DNA of 27,632 bases. Origin: a virus. Every line of letters begins with the position of its first letter. Within the stretch, counting starts at the first letter, position 1. Of this stretch, positions 12,466 to 16,687 are shown piece by piece. Location of the stretch: the IMG/VR virus record IMGVR_UViG_3300034523_000078, positions 1 through 27,632 of that record. One strand, given 5' to 3'. The notes beneath the pieces are model-generated. The model had not been told where the DNA came from, ran no database searches, and worked only from the letters and a program-made list of their open reading frames with translations. A program made the position numbers and the translations under genes.

Positions 12466-12969
12466 ATGTCTAAATCTGAAGTAAACCTGACGCGCAAGGA
12501 AATCAAGCAACTGCGTGAAGAGCGAAAGGATACTCTTGCGGAGTGGTTCAAAGTCGTACGCCGCAAGGTGAAAATAGGAGTAGCTTGCAACGAATCATTC
12601 ATCGGTGTAGTCAATTTCTCCAAGAGATCGAGTTTGTCTGTATCCCTTTACAAGCTTGGCACCTCGATCAGCCGGGAGGCCACAGCTAAGTACGTCTTGG
12701 AAACCACAGGCGACATTCTGGAGATGGAGCGCCGAGGCGGGGATCAGTACCAGTTCTTGAAGGATCAGTGCTTTGCAATCCGAGTTAAGCCCAGCAACCC
12801 TACCCGCTCGACTCCCGAGCATCACTTTGCATTGGTAGCGTGGAAGGAGGAAGTGTCGTACAACATTGCCGACCACTTTATGACCATTGAGCTCAATCTA
12901 AAAACGCCTATGGAGAGCAGAGAGAAGACCCGACTGTTCGGTAAAGTTGGGACTGTCTATAAACCCTGA
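12466..12969 (+). CDS. Plus-strand accessory protein, unknown
   Basis: 167 residues, read against the late transcript, with AGGA 6 bases before the ATG. It is highly charged at the N-terminus (EVNLTRKEIKQLREERKDTLAEWFK) and soluble-looking, without signal or membrane segment. The middle is beta-like (VKIGVACNESFIGVVNF, LSVSLYKLG) and there is HHFALVAWKEEVSYNIADHFMTIEL near 120-145. I do not recognise a family. Its opposite orientation and position in the accessory block are typical of a moron expressed in the lysogen. It faces a bidirectional terminator shared with the membrane protein gene. Confidence 0.65.
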   Translation: MSKSEVNLTRKEIKQLREERKDTLAEWFKVVRRKVKIGVACNESFIGVVNFSKRSSLSVSLYKLGTSISREATAKYVLETTGDILEMERRGGDQYQFLKDQCFAIRVKPSNPTRSTPEHHFALVAWKEEVSYNIADHFMTIELNLKTPMESREKTRLFGKVGTVYKP

Positions 12970-13172
12970 AGCTCGCGTCCATGCAAGCAAGGGCCGAATT
13001 GAAAAGCTCTGCTTGTTTCGGAGCTAGACAGGAAATCAAGTTGCGAGCCCCTGCGTTGGCTGAAATACAAAATCATGCGAGTACATCTGCAAGGCGAGTA
13101 ATCCGCACGCACACCCTTCTGCCAAGTGGCAATCTGCTCCATTGCAGGGGAGGCCTGAATTTCGACCCGGCA

Positions 13173-13210
13173 GATGCAAAAAGCCCAGCGCGAGGGCTGG
13201 GCTTTGCATC
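13173..13210. terminator. Bidirectional terminator between convergent genes
   Basis: A near-perfect 17-bp inverted repeat: GATGCAAA(AA)GCCCAGC pairs with GCTGGGCTTTGCATC around the loop GCGAGG. It has A and T tracts on both sides. It separates the plus-strand gene ending at 12969 from the minus-strand membrane protein gene ending at 13209. Between 12970 and 13172 I see no credible gene. Confidence 0.85.
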
Positions 13211-13631
13211 AGGACCTTGATCCCCTCACCGCGTCTGCCGTTGCTTTGATTACCTCTTTCATCATCTCCGCACTCAAGGGAAGCGGGCCCTGATCATCAT
13301 CCTGTTCAGGCTTTGGTCGATGATGGAAATATCTCAGCAGCGCGATGAGCAGCAAGGTAGGCACAGTTGATAGCGATACAACGATAGGGATGTCACCCGT
13401 GGTATGCGGCCTCACCGAGGCGAAAAAATACCAAAATCCAGCAGTCACACGAATGTTGCCAAAAAAAACGAAACCAAGCAGCGCTAAATAGAAAACGATA
13501 ACCAGGCCAATGGTGACAGTAGTTAATCGTTTTTCCCACCGGAAACGCCAAGCTTCTTTTTTAAGATAGTCGCTAATCAAGCCAAGGTTTTCGGCTTCGC
13601 CACCCGACAAATCGTCACTTGTATCGATCAT
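13209..13631 (-). CDS. Two-helix membrane protein paired with the protease
   Basis: 140 residues. The acidic N-terminus (about 1-33) is followed by membrane segments at about 37-58 (TTVTIGLVIVFYLALLGFVFF) and 81-101 (PIVVSLSTVPTLLLIALLRYF), then a charged, proline-containing tail with HHRPKPEQDDDQ. The loop of ~22 residues between the helices is probably periplasmic. Its ATG overlaps the stop of the metalloprotease gene as ATGA, so the two are co-translated. I do not recognise a family. The pairing suggests a membrane effector, or a protein whose level the protease controls. Confidence 0.7.
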   Translation of the reverse strand: MIDTSDDLSGGEAENLGLISDYLKKEAWRFRWEKRLTTVTIGLVIVFYLALLGFVFFGNIRVTAGFWYFFASVRPHTTGDIPIVVSLSTVPTLLLIALLRYFHHRPKPEQDDDQGPLPLSAEMMKEVIKATADAVRGSRS

Positions 13632-14110
13632 AAAAGCCCAATCGCCTTCAACCTGAATTCCATTGCAGCTGTCGAAACGCCAAAGGTGCTGGCCAGCCTA
13701 GATAGATCAGTGACTCGTTGCTCGAGCACCATATGCTTCACCAGCGCAGCGGGCATGAGAAGAGCTGCTGCAAATCTATTTGCTGCAACTTCTCTTGGGT
13801 CCCTAGATCTCGCACTAAATTGTTCGGACGTATCACGGGGGGCATCAAGATCGCCATGAACGTGGTGACCGATCTCGTGAGCAATAGTAAATCGCTGACG
13901 TACTGGCGCATCCAAGAAGTTGTAGGTGATTAACGGCTGCCCTTCGCGATAGGAATAATGGCCGCTCTCGTTTGGTCTCCAGGTTTCTGGCTTAAATGGC
14001 GAGAGAGCCTGCACCTCAATGCCCATAGCGGTCGCTATGGCCTGTGGATTCACCGGTAGACGGCCATCCCAGTGCGACCGAAGGACGTCGTCTGCAGTTT
14101 TGTACTCCAT
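13628..14110 (-). CDS. ImmA/IrrE-family metalloprotease
   Basis: 160 residues. The zinc motif HEIGH is at 78-82 within RFTIAHEIGHHVHGD, and the third ligand is probably E107 in REVAANRFAAALLMP, the classic ImmA/IrrE (DUF955) layout. Family members cleave or unfold repressors and toxin partners (ImmA cleaves ImmR; IrrE/DdrO). No helix-turn-helix domain or repressor gene is adjacent; the partner is a membrane protein gene that overlaps the stop. ATG 14110 is chosen over an in-frame TTG at 14155 because GGGGGGG stands 3 bases before it. A promoter with an inverted repeat lies upstream. It probably acts in the lysogen rather than in the virion. Confidence 0.85.
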   Translation of the reverse strand: MEYKTADDVLRSHWDGRLPVNPQAIATAMGIEVQALSPFKPETWRPNESGHYSYREGQPLITYNFLDAPVRQRFTIAHEIGHHVHGDLDAPRDTSEQFSARSRDPREVAANRFAAALLMPAALVKHMVLEQRVTDLSRLASTFGVSTAAMEFRLKAIGLL

Positions 14111-14113
14111 GCG

Positions 14114-14127
14114 CCCCCCCTTTTTTT
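14114..14127 (-). repeat. A7G7 homopolymer block at the protease start
   Basis: On the minus strand seven A are followed by seven G, then CGC and the ATG at 14110. The G run serves as the ribosome binding site. Runs of this length can change by slippage, which would alter spacing or strength. Confidence 0.6.
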
Positions 14128-14154
14128 GGCTGACTAAGCGTAAATACTTACTCA

Positions 14155-14210
14155 AAAATGAGGCGCGAGTCTGCCGAAGTCAAGTGGGTATGTCAATTTT
14201 TTGCTTGACA
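14155..14210 (-). promoter_or_regulatory. Promoter and operator of the metalloprotease pair
   Basis: On the minus strand a perfect -35 TTGACA (14196-14191) stands 17 bases before CAGACT (14173-14168). A second pair, TTGACT (14183-14178) with CATTTT, is also possible. The first -35 is one arm of the inverted repeat TGTCAA-N8-TTGACA (14191-14210), so a repressor bound there would block RNA polymerase. The -10 matches are weak (3 of 6). Confidence 0.5.
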
Positions 14211-14257: not shown

Positions 14258-14994
14258 TCACGCCTCATTCATCACCCGGCAGTGGATGCCGTCCATCTTC
14301 ATCAGCACCCGAGCCTCTTCCGGCTCGATCTGCCGATCCATCATCCGCGTCCAGGCGTCCATTTCTTGCCAGGTCAGCGGATCGCTGGTGCGCTTGAGCT
14401 CCCAGTACAAGCCGGCCAGATAGCCCATACCCTCGGGCATGGCTGGAATATCCAGCTCCCGAGGCTTGTGGCCGGTCATGTTCCAGACCCGCGTCAGGTG
14501 ATCGCGGGTGGTGGCAGTCGATCCTTTGACCGGCTTGTTGAGCTTGGCCTCACCTTCCCAGTGGGTTAGGAGGCTTTCAACTCTGGAGCGAAAAAACGGG
14601 CGCGGTCGCTCGCCAGTCGCTCGACATCATTCGCCAGGCCGGGGTTGTTGAGCAGCAGCTCGGCTACGGCTTCTTTGCTGTATGGCACCGGCAGCGACCA
14701 GTCGAAGGCCAGCGCGGAACGGTACAGCAGGTTGGCACGCTGAGAGATGGCGGCCTCTTCTTCTACCGACATGCCTTCCTTTCCCTCATCGCGCAGGATT
14801 CGAGTTGCTTCCAGCAGGGCTTTACGGGCAGCAGGCGCATCGGCACCCAGCACCATCAGGTGATATTCGGTTTCAGTGCCATCAGGCAGGGTCAACGGCA
14901 GTTTCTTGCCTTTCTCCAGAGCGCCCAGGGTGAAGAAGTCGGACAGAGCGAATGGCTTGATAGGTGCAGCGGCTTTTTCGGCTTTAGTGGTCAT
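14258..14994 (-). CDS. GT tail assembly chaperone via -1 frameshift
   Basis: The frameshifted product, about 245 residues. Translation starts at 14994 with the G frame, slips -1 at TTTTTTC (14596-14590), and then reads RSRVESLLTHWEGEAKLNKP and on through the T frame to the stop at 14258. The -1 frame is open without a stop from the slip to the end. The T part contains LDIPAMPEGMGYLAGLYWELKR and LTWQEMDAWTRMMDRQIEPEE. As with lambda G and GT, the long form should bring the tape measure and tail tube subunits together and is not kept in the finished tail. The internal ATG at 14479 (73 codons) is probably not a real start. Confidence 0.85.
14547..14596 (-). promoter_or_regulatory. Programmed -1 frameshift signal
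   Basis: The G frame reads CGT TTT TTC, so T TTT TTC is an exact X-XXY-YYZ heptamer; both tRNAs can re-pair after slipping back one base. Fifteen bases later the RNA can fold into GCCTC...CCC-ACT-GGG...GAGGC (14574-14547), which also covers the G stop codon. Slippery heptamer, downstream stem and open -1 frame are the three parts of the lambda-type G/GT signal. Confidence 0.85.
14566..14994 (-). CDS. G tail assembly chaperone
   Basis: The unshifted product, 142 residues from ATG 14994 (MTTKAEKAAAPIKPFALSDFF). GGAG lies 9 bases upstream; a longer ATG-less extension to 15039 is rejected because it runs through a terminator. It is Ala/Leu/Glu-rich and helical, with LPDGTETEYHLMVLGADAPAARKA near 32-55, in keeping with tail assembly chaperones of siphoviruses. 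It should be made in excess over the GT form. It is followed by the accessory block rather than directly by the tape measure gene. Confidence 0.85.
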   Translation of the reverse strand: MTTKAEKAAAPIKPFALSDFFTLGALEKGKKLPLTLPDGTETEYHLMVLGADAPAARKALLEATRILRDEGKEGMSVEEEAAISQRANLLYRSALAFDWSLPVPYSKEAVAELLLNNPGLANDVERLASDRARFFAPELKAS

Positions 14995-15011
14995 TCGGTG
15001 AATCTCCAGGC

Positions 15012-15037
15012 AAAAAGAAGCCCGCTCAGTGGCGGGC
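15012..15037 (-). terminator. Terminator fused to chaperone ribosome binding site
   Basis: On the minus strand GCCCGC-CACTGA-GCGGGC is followed by TTCTTTTTGCCTGGAGA and the chaperone start. It is the third example of the hairpin, T-tract and GCCTGGAGA arrangement. Confidence 0.75.
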
Positions 15038-15055
15038 ATTTAGGGTTCTTTAGTG

Positions 15056-15571
15056 TTAAGCGCTAAACAGTCGGTACTGACCGTCGCGCTCAATGGTCAT
15101 AATTCTGTTTTCAATGGCTGGTTTCTTGATCTGCCAGCGCTGCAAGGTTCGTCCGGCCAGGCTGGCAATGCCCTTCTCCTGCCGGTATTCAAGCATCAGC
15201 TCGTTGCGAATATGGTCGTAACTCATGGCGCGCTGGAGCAGCTGATCGGCCATCCAGTTGAAGGCGTCAATGAAGCGCTCTTTGATCTGGTCCGCTTTCT
15301 CGCCAGTCAGCCCCATGGCGACAAACATAAAGCCATCTTTGGTCATCTCGTACATGGGCCGCTGCTCACCCTTCGCGTCCAGGTATTCAACGAGCGCAAA
15401 ATTGCGCCGGTTGAATTCGGGCGAGCACTTCATGTTGGCAATCTTGCGCAACACAGCCTTGTGCGCCCTGCCAAAGTAGGCAGCAACGCGCAGCGAAGTA
15501 GTTACGACCTTTCCTTGGTCGGCCATCACCATCTGCTGAAAGTCAGCGTCGTTCAAAATCAATTCGCTCAT
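15056..15571 (-). CDS. rha: Rha-family phage regulatory protein
   Basis: 171 residues from ATG 15571 (MSELILNDADFQ), with GGAG 6 bases upstream; an in-frame ATG at 15592 is less well served. Residues ~22-115 match the pRha domain: VVTTSLRVAAYFGRAHKAVL, then FNRRNFALVEYLD, then YEMTKDGFMFVAMGLTGEKA. The last ~50 residues (SYDHIRNELMLEYRQEKGIA onward) form a separate basic tail. Rha proteins are early regulators or antirepressor-like proteins; phage P22/phi-80 relatives block growth in hosts lacking IHF. Finding one inside the tail operon is unusual, and it has its own leader with terminators and a structured RNA. Confidence 0.85.
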   Translation of the reverse strand: MSELILNDADFQQMVMADQGKVVTTSLRVAAYFGRAHKAVLRKIANMKCSPEFNRRNFALVEYLDAKGEQRPMYEMTKDGFMFVAMGLTGEKADQIKERFIDAFNWMADQLLQRAMSYDHIRNELMLEYRQEKGIASLAGRTLQRWQIKKPAIENRIMTIERDGQYRLFSA

Positions 15572-15592
15572 TGCGCACTCCTGACTCGCCAT

Positions 15593-15661
15593 TTAATAGA
15601 GGCATGCAGGCAGGGACGGAGGCGTACCCGTCCCTTTCGGGTGTACAGCCCTAGCCAGCAT
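15593..15661 (-). CDS. Possible 22-residue leader peptide before rha
   Basis: An ORF starting MLARAVHPKGTGTPP, with AGGG 6 bases before the ATG and TAA ending one base before the ATG at 15592. It reads through the structured RNA at 15603-15662, so ribosomes on it would open that structure. A longer 66-codon frame (15768-15568) covers the same stretch and overlaps the rha start as ATGA, but has no ribosome binding site. The peptide recalls the short Ash/Icd-like ORFs in front of phage antirepressor genes; this is an impression, not an alignment. Confidence 0.35.
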   Translation of the reverse strand: MLARAVHPKGTGTPPSLPACLY

Positions 15662-15662
15662 G
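15603..15662 (-). ncRNA. Structured leader RNA upstream of rha
   Basis: On the minus strand CATGCTGGCTAGGG at the 5' end can pair, with one mismatch and one bulge, with CCCTGCCTGCATG at the 3' end. Inside lies CCC-GAAA-GGG, a GNRA tetraloop hairpin. The same GGG also opens the 7-bp stem GGGACGG/CCGTCCC, so at least two folds exclude each other. This is the mark of an attenuator or antisense control RNA; c4-type RNAs control antirepressor genes in P1-like phages. Family membership is not shown. Confidence 0.45.
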
Positions 15663-15702
15663 AATATCCCTGAAGGGATTCGGTTTGCCTTGCAGCAGAA
15701 AC

Positions 15703-15729
15703 AAAAAGCCCCAGCGAGTGCCAGGGCTT
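15703..15729 (-). terminator. Terminator in the rha leader
   Basis: On the minus strand AAGCCC...GGGCTT followed by TTTG. It is the second of two terminators after the tail tube gene. Confidence 0.65.
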
Positions 15730-15740
15730 GGGGATCAGTA

Positions 15741-15765
15741 ATAAATAAGGGGCTCGAAAGCCCCT
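15741..15765 (-). terminator. Terminator after the tail tube gene
   Basis: A perfect hairpin AGGGGCT-TTCG-AGCCCCT on the minus strand, followed by TATTTATTA. It lies 17 bases after the tail tube stop codon. Confidence 0.75.
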
Positions 15766-15781
15766 CATTGCAGCGAGACGA

Positions 15782-16687
15782 TTACGCGCCAGTGCGCGTG
15801 ATCATCATGGTGGTGGCCAGCACGTCGTCGTAACCGGCGCTGACCGTGTATTGCGGGATGATTGCGCCGGGGCCACTGACCTGCTTCTGGCCCTGCGTGT
15901 AGCGGACCTTTGGAAGGTCAATCGTGTAGCTGTCGTCGCCCTCCTTCAGTTCGATGGAGTGGGCGGTAGAGGTCTCATCGAGAACCTTGTCCCACAAGAC
16001 AGCATCAACCAGATATGCGCTCATGCTACCGGTAACGACCGCGACACCGTTGGAGATGTCGAAGGCTTCACGACTGCCCAGGGCAAATAGCGCTTCCATG
16101 CCGTTATCGAGGTTGACGCTCCACTCGGTCGCATAGGCGACATCAACACCACCTTCTTTGAGCGCCAGGTTGGTGGTGATCATGATGTCGGTTGCGGTTG
16201 CAGCTAGGTAAGTCGAACCGACCGGCACAGTGAATTTCTGCGCCTGAGTGCCCATCATGCTGAACGTGACACCGACCGGAGCATTCAGCGGCGAGCTGAT
16301 TGCCATGGTGCTGACGCGACAGCCGCGATACACGTAGTCAACGCCGATGTCGGTGTGGCGCTCCAGAATCGCAAAGGTGCGCTCAACCTTGCCGATCTTC
16401 AGGACGTTGGCGGTCCAGGTGCCCTGCATAGCCGCCTGGATCAGGTCGTCGAAGCTGCGGAATGACAGCTCAACCGCGATGTCGCCGGCCACGCTGTAGG
16501 TGCCACCACGACTTGGTGGCCGCTGACGGGTCTGATTCATCTCAGCCGTGTCGATCTGGTTGATGTTCGGCGTCAGGCCTTCGCTGACGAATCGAATCGG
16601 TTTCCACGCCGGAGTGTCCGGGATTTCACCCGCGACCTCTTCGACGTAAAACGCTTGAACGGCCGAGCCGTTGGCTAACTTGCCCAT
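15782..16687 (-). CDS. Major tail tube protein
   Basis: 301 residues of the 'phage tube 2' type. Visible features are FVSEGLTPNINQIDTAEMNQ near 33-52, AGDIAVELSFRSFDDLIQAAM, and the beta-rich body with FSMMGTQAQKF near 141-151. It stacks as rings around the tape measure to form the tail tube. AGGA lies 7 bases before the ATG. Downstream come two terminators, so expression of this abundant protein is separated from rha and the chaperones. The tail terminator gene lies upstream. Confidence 0.88.
   Translation of the reverse strand: MGKLANGSAVQAFYVEEVAGEIPDTPAWKPIRFVSEGLTPNINQIDTAEMNQTRQRPPSRGGTYSVAGDIAVELSFRSFDDLIQAAMQGTWTANVLKIGKVERTFAILERHTDIGVDYVYRGCRVSTMAISSPLNAPVGVTFSMMGTQAQKFTVPVGSTYLAATATDIMITTNLALKEGGVDVAYATEWSVNLDNGMEALFALGSREAFDISNGVAVVTGSMSAYLVDAVLWDKVLDETSTAHSIELKEGDDSYTIDLPKVRYTQGQKQVSGPGAIIPQYTVSAGYDDVLATTMMITRTGA

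Follow-up and report, generated by a model that had tools for sequence, protein, structure and literature searches.

How a rha gene lying inside the tail genes of a phage is controlled, and whether the folded leader in front of it takes part, is the question raised by this locus. The window, by which we mean the whole stretch of DNA analyzed, comprises the 27,632 bases of a viral contig whose tail genes lie on the minus strand. The rha gene is flanked by the genes for the tail tube (15782-16687) and the tail chaperone (14566-15039), and terminator scans of the window placed terminators on either side of it. Sitting between terminators inside the tail genes, rha is located as a moron would be. 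The first-pass annotation had put two terminators ahead of the leader; the scan returned the one at 15729-15706, whereas the other, a perfect hairpin at 15764-15749, was absent from the scan list (Table 1). Elsewhere among the tail genes, an IrrE-like M78 metallopeptidase gene (13628-14155, minus strand) is another likely moron, and two opposite-strand ORFs of 167 and 79 amino acids lie within the tail operon (12466-13220, plus strand), the 167-aa ORF having no Pfam or PHROG match.

The same annotation had pointed to an in-frame rha ATG, that at 15592. Since this ATG is out of frame in the related locus L213 and absent in L235, the likely start is the ATG at 15571, located 6 nt after AGGAG. 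Two leader ORFs had also been described, one of 22 codons (ATG 15661, TAA 15595-15593) and one of 66 codons (15768-15568). Both exist in the window, but in L002, L003, L213, and L235 the shorter one is either absent, greatly extended, or shifted in phase, and the longer one, without a Pfam or PHROG match, is closed in L002, L003, and L235. As leader ORFs are not conserved in close relatives, the proposed likeness to Icd/Ash is not supported.

A self-folding 60-nt element with a long outer stem had been reported upstream of rha, and it was recovered at 15662-15603 on the minus strand. It ends 31 nt 5′ of the likely start codon, and its outer stem is the P1 of a three-way junction, in which the order is P1 (CATGCTGGC/GCCTGCATG), UA, P2, GAAA, P3, U, and P1′. 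The GGGACGG/CCGTCCC stem of the earlier description is real and corresponds to the P3 hairpin. The CCC-GAAA-GGG tetraloop hairpin is not the conserved fold, its GAAA being the J23 strand between P2 and P3. In relatives, P1 carries compensatory changes (GCCAGC/GCTGGC in L002, GCCGGC/GCCGGC in L003). By its folding energy alone the window RNA is only modestly supported: a 72-nt stretch folded with -26.8 kcal/mol (z -2.3), and 5 of 200 shuffles were as stable. When the leader was folded as far as the start codon (94 nt), another structure was preferred, in which the P1 3′ strand pairs with the SD region; this competing fold also buries the SD, and it counts against the proposed three-way-junction switch.

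Table 1. Features of the rha locus in the window
Feature	Position	Strand	Basis or remark
rha (Phage_pRha + ORF11CD3)	15056..15571	-	likely start ATG 15571; Pfam E 8e-29 and 7.7e-15; PHROG 518 E 5.5e-69
rha Shine-Dalgarno (SD) region AGGAGTGCG	15574..15582	-	sequence; GGAGNGCG kept in close relatives
Decoy site GGCG	15587..15590	-	kept in L002, L003, L157, L213, L216, L224, L235
int-alpA-like three-way-junction RNA (P1/P2/P3), 60 nt	15603..15662	-	RF02996 match, model R1 match, same stems in fold
P1 5′ strand CATGCTGGC	15654..15662	-	sequence coordinates; compensatory changes in L002, L003
P1 3′ strand GCCTGCATG	15603..15611	-	sequence coordinates
P2 hairpin GGG-CUGUACA-CCC	15639..15651	-	loop with 6-nt palindrome UGUACA at 15647-15642
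P3 hairpin GGGACGGG-UACGCC-TCCGTCCC	15613..15634	-	Rfam alignment and fold
Putative anti-SD segment CGCCUCC (L3), apical P3	15618..15624	-	predicted pairing; own-versus-other significance for the family, not this locus alone
Extra hairpin AUCCC-UUCA-GGGAU	15666..15679	-	only in close subfamily
P0 hairpin GCU-GCAA-GGC, 5′ of junction	15687..15696	-	in rha-type relatives as GCCGCAAGGC, GCCCGCAAGGGC or GCCUG-UUUU-CAGGC
Intrinsic terminator 5′ of leader	15706..15729	-	terminator scan, stem 15729-15706
Second hairpin, terminator-like, after tail tube gene	15749..15764	-	perfect hairpin in sequence; absent from terminator scan list
Intrinsic terminator directly 3′ of rha	15020..15037	-	terminator scan

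The RNA was assigned using covariance models. The int-alpA family model (RF02996) matched at 15661-15590 with 29.3 bits (E 6.5e-4, 801 bases searched), which is below its curated gathering cut-off of 35.8 bits, and whole-window scans reported no RF02996 match to the element. With filters off, the model R1, made from 27 sequences of which none came from the window's subfamily, returned the element as its best match in the whole window (E 5.8e-4); with default filters R1, whose seed is limited to GACG loops, missed it. Sister rha leaders from Acinetobacter (36.1 bits) and Pseudomonas phage YMC11/02/R656 (36.3 bits) scored above the RF02996 cut-off. Because of the two model matches and these sister leaders, we assign the window RNA as a diverged int-alpA-type RNA that is not a formal member by score. 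It has the stem layout P1-UA-P2-GAAA(A)-P3-CU-P1 and the conserved junction letters of the family (J12 UA, J23 GAAA(A), and J31), a tighter parse giving GAAA for J23 and a single U for J31. It differs from the family in its P2 loop, which is GUACA instead of the usual GACG, and in its tie to the SD of the next gene, the Rfam type being "Gene; sRNA." A match to Atu_C3 at 15832-15699 (32.7 bits) was rejected, since it was far below the cut-off of 100 and lay over terminator hairpins. A blastn search of one short consensus against phages gave no match. No functional work on int-alpA was found in the literature searched, and as far as that literature shows the family has no known function.

Covariation of the stems among homologues, which had been named beforehand, together with a short transcript, as a test of the first-pass reading, was strong. 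In a 27-sequence alignment, 94.3% of the cells were paired, two-sided changes occurred in 15 of the 17 pairs, and there were 160 compensatory cells compared with 41.7 after shuffling, while sliding the partner by one column lowered the pairing to about 42%. Most of these sequences had been selected by their P2 loop letters, so that loop conservation in this alignment is by construction, whereas P1 and P3 were free. Across clusters, the junction letters (near-invariant UA, GAAA, and CU) were very conserved.

RF02996-positive genomes made up 21 of 119 in the genus Acinetobacter, 20 of 250 in Pseudomonas, 8 of 248 in the order of a Providencia genome, and 51 of 399 in the whole phylum (Pseudomonadota), and every pattern scan of viral contigs gave at least about 120 matches. 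An SD and a start codon followed 24-50 nt after P1 in 102 of the 116 parsed RF02996 loci. The genes behind the RNA are diverse. For 83 clusters, Pfam gave HNH_3 (10), Endonuclease_7 (4), Rha (3), NUMOD3 (3), AntA (2), and one each of KilA-N, P22_AR_N, and AlpA, with many downstream genes left without assignment; the PHROGs of the downstream genes agreed, comprising nucleases and antirepressors, and the nucleases were of the HNH, GIY-YIG, and endonuclease-VII kinds. Among named phages, the RNA precedes a Rha-type gene in D3 (before orf11), F10, YMC11/02/R656, and Acinetobacter phage TRS1, and a small P0 hairpin lies 5′ of the junction in rha-type loci. In about one third of the clusters, -10-like boxes were found directly before P1 (about 33 matches starting at -14 to -8, compared with about 4.4 expected), which would place the transcription start at P1. 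Regions 5′ of P1 without such a box folded more stably on average (-6.9 vs. -4.1 kcal/mol). The window copy has no -10 box at P1, and the promoter scan found no sigma-70 promoter near its leader.

Two sites in the tail of the RNA have sequences complementary to the apical part of P3 (L3). One is the SD, and the other, a decoy, often lies some 17-22 nt 5′ of the start codon. In 92 clusters, L3 paired with its own decoy at -7.65 kcal/mol and with those of other loci at -4.37 kcal/mol; for the SD the corresponding values were -8.15 and -5.95 kcal/mol, and each difference was reached in 0 of 2000 permutations. Both sites paired at -5 kcal/mol or below in 73 of the 92 clusters, compared with a mean of 30 and a maximum of 41 for permuted tails. 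Start codons had been chosen by SD and frame, never by L3. The own-site preference was repeated in 22 RF02996-called loci, in 75 RF02996-only clusters, and in 36 clusters of a third, GAUC-loop viral set (among the matches listed), again with 0 of 2000 permutations, and controls with the sequence upstream of P1 were flat; the four sets overlap, the 75-cluster set including most of the 22 loci and some of the 92-cluster set. The SD is also flanked by arms that match one another and would form an SD hairpin, P4 (0/2000 permutations). In the phage D3 subfamily, the pseudoknot was 95.6% paired, with two-sided compensatory changes.

In the window, the predicted partners of L3 (CGCCUCC) are GGAGuGCG at 15581-15574 (-10.9 kcal/mol) and GGCG at 15590-15587 (-6.7 kcal/mol), two sites that close relatives retain. 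Owing to GC richness, 443 of 1000 letter-shuffled loops paired with the tail as well as this L3 did, which is not significant, and the putative anti-SD function of the window copy leans on its family. Avoidance of cross-pairing between co-resident copies in one genome was not seen (-6.7 within vs. -6.0 between), a result that lends no support to trans specificity.

The first-pass annotation had compared the layout with antirepressor operons governed by c4-type antisense RNA. As a membership claim this was refuted, since at E<=10 the window had no match to the C4 model (RF01695), while it does match int-alpA. The analogy of function has good support from the common topology, a P3 loop that is SD-complementary at the level of the int-alpA family, and the presence of C4 in the same slot before rha. 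Taken as a whole, what that annotation had observed was confirmed in part, and its interpretation likewise found partial support. The C4 RNA of phage P1 (68.8 bits) forms a P1/P2/P3 three-way junction, in which the P3 loop (b′) matches b2 at the icd ribosome-binding site and a junction strand matches a2, so that here too a second site lies right after P1. C4 likewise stands upstream of antirepressor and Rha genes: among 37 viral Rha records without an int-alpA found at rha, 22 had C4, in 20 cases 118-466 nt upstream of the rha match. Since these 20 records carry C4 where others carry int-alpA, one slot upstream of rha is filled by two RNA families that have no model match to each other. The two differ in junction and sequence, and C4 has two antisense segments (a′ and b′), whereas int-alpA uses one loop for two sites. 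Unlike a C4-type immI operon, the window has no conserved Icd-like leader ORF and has just 31 nt from P1 to the start codon. A review suggests that c4 may be the prototype for an RNA class of this kind (PMC12197685).

On these grounds we consider it probable that the window element is a diverged int-alpA-type leader RNA controlling the translation of rha, and that it belongs to a C4-like type of off-switch for phage accessory genes. The P1-P2-P3 junction would present the C-rich anti-SD loop L3 on P3. Pairing of L3 with the SD of the same mRNA would block rha, whereas the SD would remain accessible if L3 paired instead with the decoy, an SD-like site lying a few bases further upstream. The SD would be closed by L3 in cis and possibly also by processed copies in trans; trans action, like dimerization, is plausible but unproven. 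C4 of phage P1, a member of another RNA family, follows the logic proposed here for L3. Its likeliest use would be to keep accessory phage genes, such as Rha, antirepressors, and homing endonucleases, silent or only briefly expressed. Homing endonucleases of T4 (I-TevI, segB, mobE) have hairpins that sequester the ribosome-binding site (RBS) (PMC2988022). In both cases an RNA structure would hold the RBS of free-standing or intron-encoded homing endonucleases, but the T4 hairpins are local and simple, and a late promoter bypasses them, whereas int-alpA is a conserved junction RNA with a separate anti-SD loop. If this reading is true, int-alpA would be a widespread regulatory module, second to C4, in which mobile phage genes such as those for homing endonucleases and antirepressors are placed behind a structured leader. 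How morons, and endonuclease genes that stand free in phage genomes, are kept quiet would then have an explanation open to direct testing. The relatives found before many phage homing-endonuclease and antirepressor genes suggest a common, overlooked way of silencing such genes until they are needed.

Several other explanations were weighed against translational control by L3. Very conserved junction letters, a compact fold, an SD-directed pseudoknot, and the occurrence of one RNA before many genes would also suit a riboswitch, in which a small molecule at the junction decides between L3-decoy and L3-SD pairing. We regard this as unlikely, as what the downstream genes share is a mobile-DNA lifestyle and not a metabolic pathway, P2 loops differ between classes, and the same slot is filled by C4, which is not known as a riboswitch. 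The narrow distance of an SD and start codon in nearly all loci, together with the specific matching of L3 to that SD region, makes it quite improbable that the RNA is a free trans-acting sRNA with targets elsewhere and an incidental position before the gene, even though its Rfam type and the promoter boxes directly at P1 would agree with this.

A passive 5′ structure, serving mRNA stability or the insulation of a moron from the operon, could be imagined for a rha gene between terminators, and a transcription start at P1 would give the mRNA a paired 5′ end. The SD complementarity would then be that of generic C-rich loops; loops and SDs of this generic kind are already accounted for in the own-versus-other permutations, which still gave 0/2000, and we assign little probability to this explanation. 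A genuine C4 antisense RNA accompanied by an Icd-like leader ORF would have the same topology and, in other phages, the same downstream gene family, but it is highly improbable here given the missing RF01695 match, the different junction, the leader ORFs that are not conserved, and the lack of any c4-a1b1 match in the window.

The P2 loops may add a further function to an L3-based switch. Among the matches listed from scans that put no constraint on the P2 loop, which take in some chance matches, 31 of 42 distinct non-GACG loops contained a palindrome of at least 4 nt, compared with a shuffle expectation of 7.6 and a maximum of 18 over 5000 shuffles. Counted by locus, also among the matches listed, 73 of 113 loops were palindromic, 14 were GACG, and 26 were neither; in the RF02996 set, GACG was the commonest P2 loop (53/116). 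Retroviral RNA forms a two-pair GACG kissing complex. GACG tetraloops and palindromes are both named as loop types of the retroviral RNA dimer linkage (PMC516450). Because the P2 loops of int-alpA, mostly GACG tetraloops or palindromes, are of types known from these linkages, self-kissing of int-alpA RNAs via P2 is a fair prediction; the RNAs are unrelated, and for int-alpA dimerization is a prediction only. Alternatively, the P2 palindrome could reflect a DNA palindrome bound by a protein, but a common operator sequence was not seen and GACG is not palindromic. Going beyond P2 kissing, we tentatively suggest, with more doubt than confidence, that int-alpA may be a self-sensing copy-number switch, in which two copies kiss through their P2 loops, either GACG tetraloops or palindromes of 4-6 nt, and, once dimerized, one copy uses its anti-SD loop to close the SD of its partner. 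In a naive cell, an incoming phage or selfish gene would thus be expressed immediately, to be silenced as its RNA accumulates, and one RNA module would, if this is true, serve many unrelated phage, homing, and satellite genes.

A number of individual loci were also recorded. In one genome, L136 and L141 lie 1.7 kb apart and represent successive genes that by eye are of HNH type, each with its own int-alpA RNA and with differing P2 loops and L3. On the minus strand of L457 (about 7347-7330), an int-alpA-type RNA directly precedes an ORF whose start is TnpB-like by eye. Where a Rha gene lacks both int-alpA and C4, a different folded leader is present (L010:2893-3003, L011:2893-3003); in L010, CATTAGC is complementary to GCTAATG at the SD, and this is possibly a third leader type. 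Finally, a tandem pair of int-alpA-type RNAs stands before one Rha gene in phage YMC11/02/R656 (L407:1501-1663) and also in L168, L176, and L199, the first RNA of the pair seeming to have lost its SD-like target.
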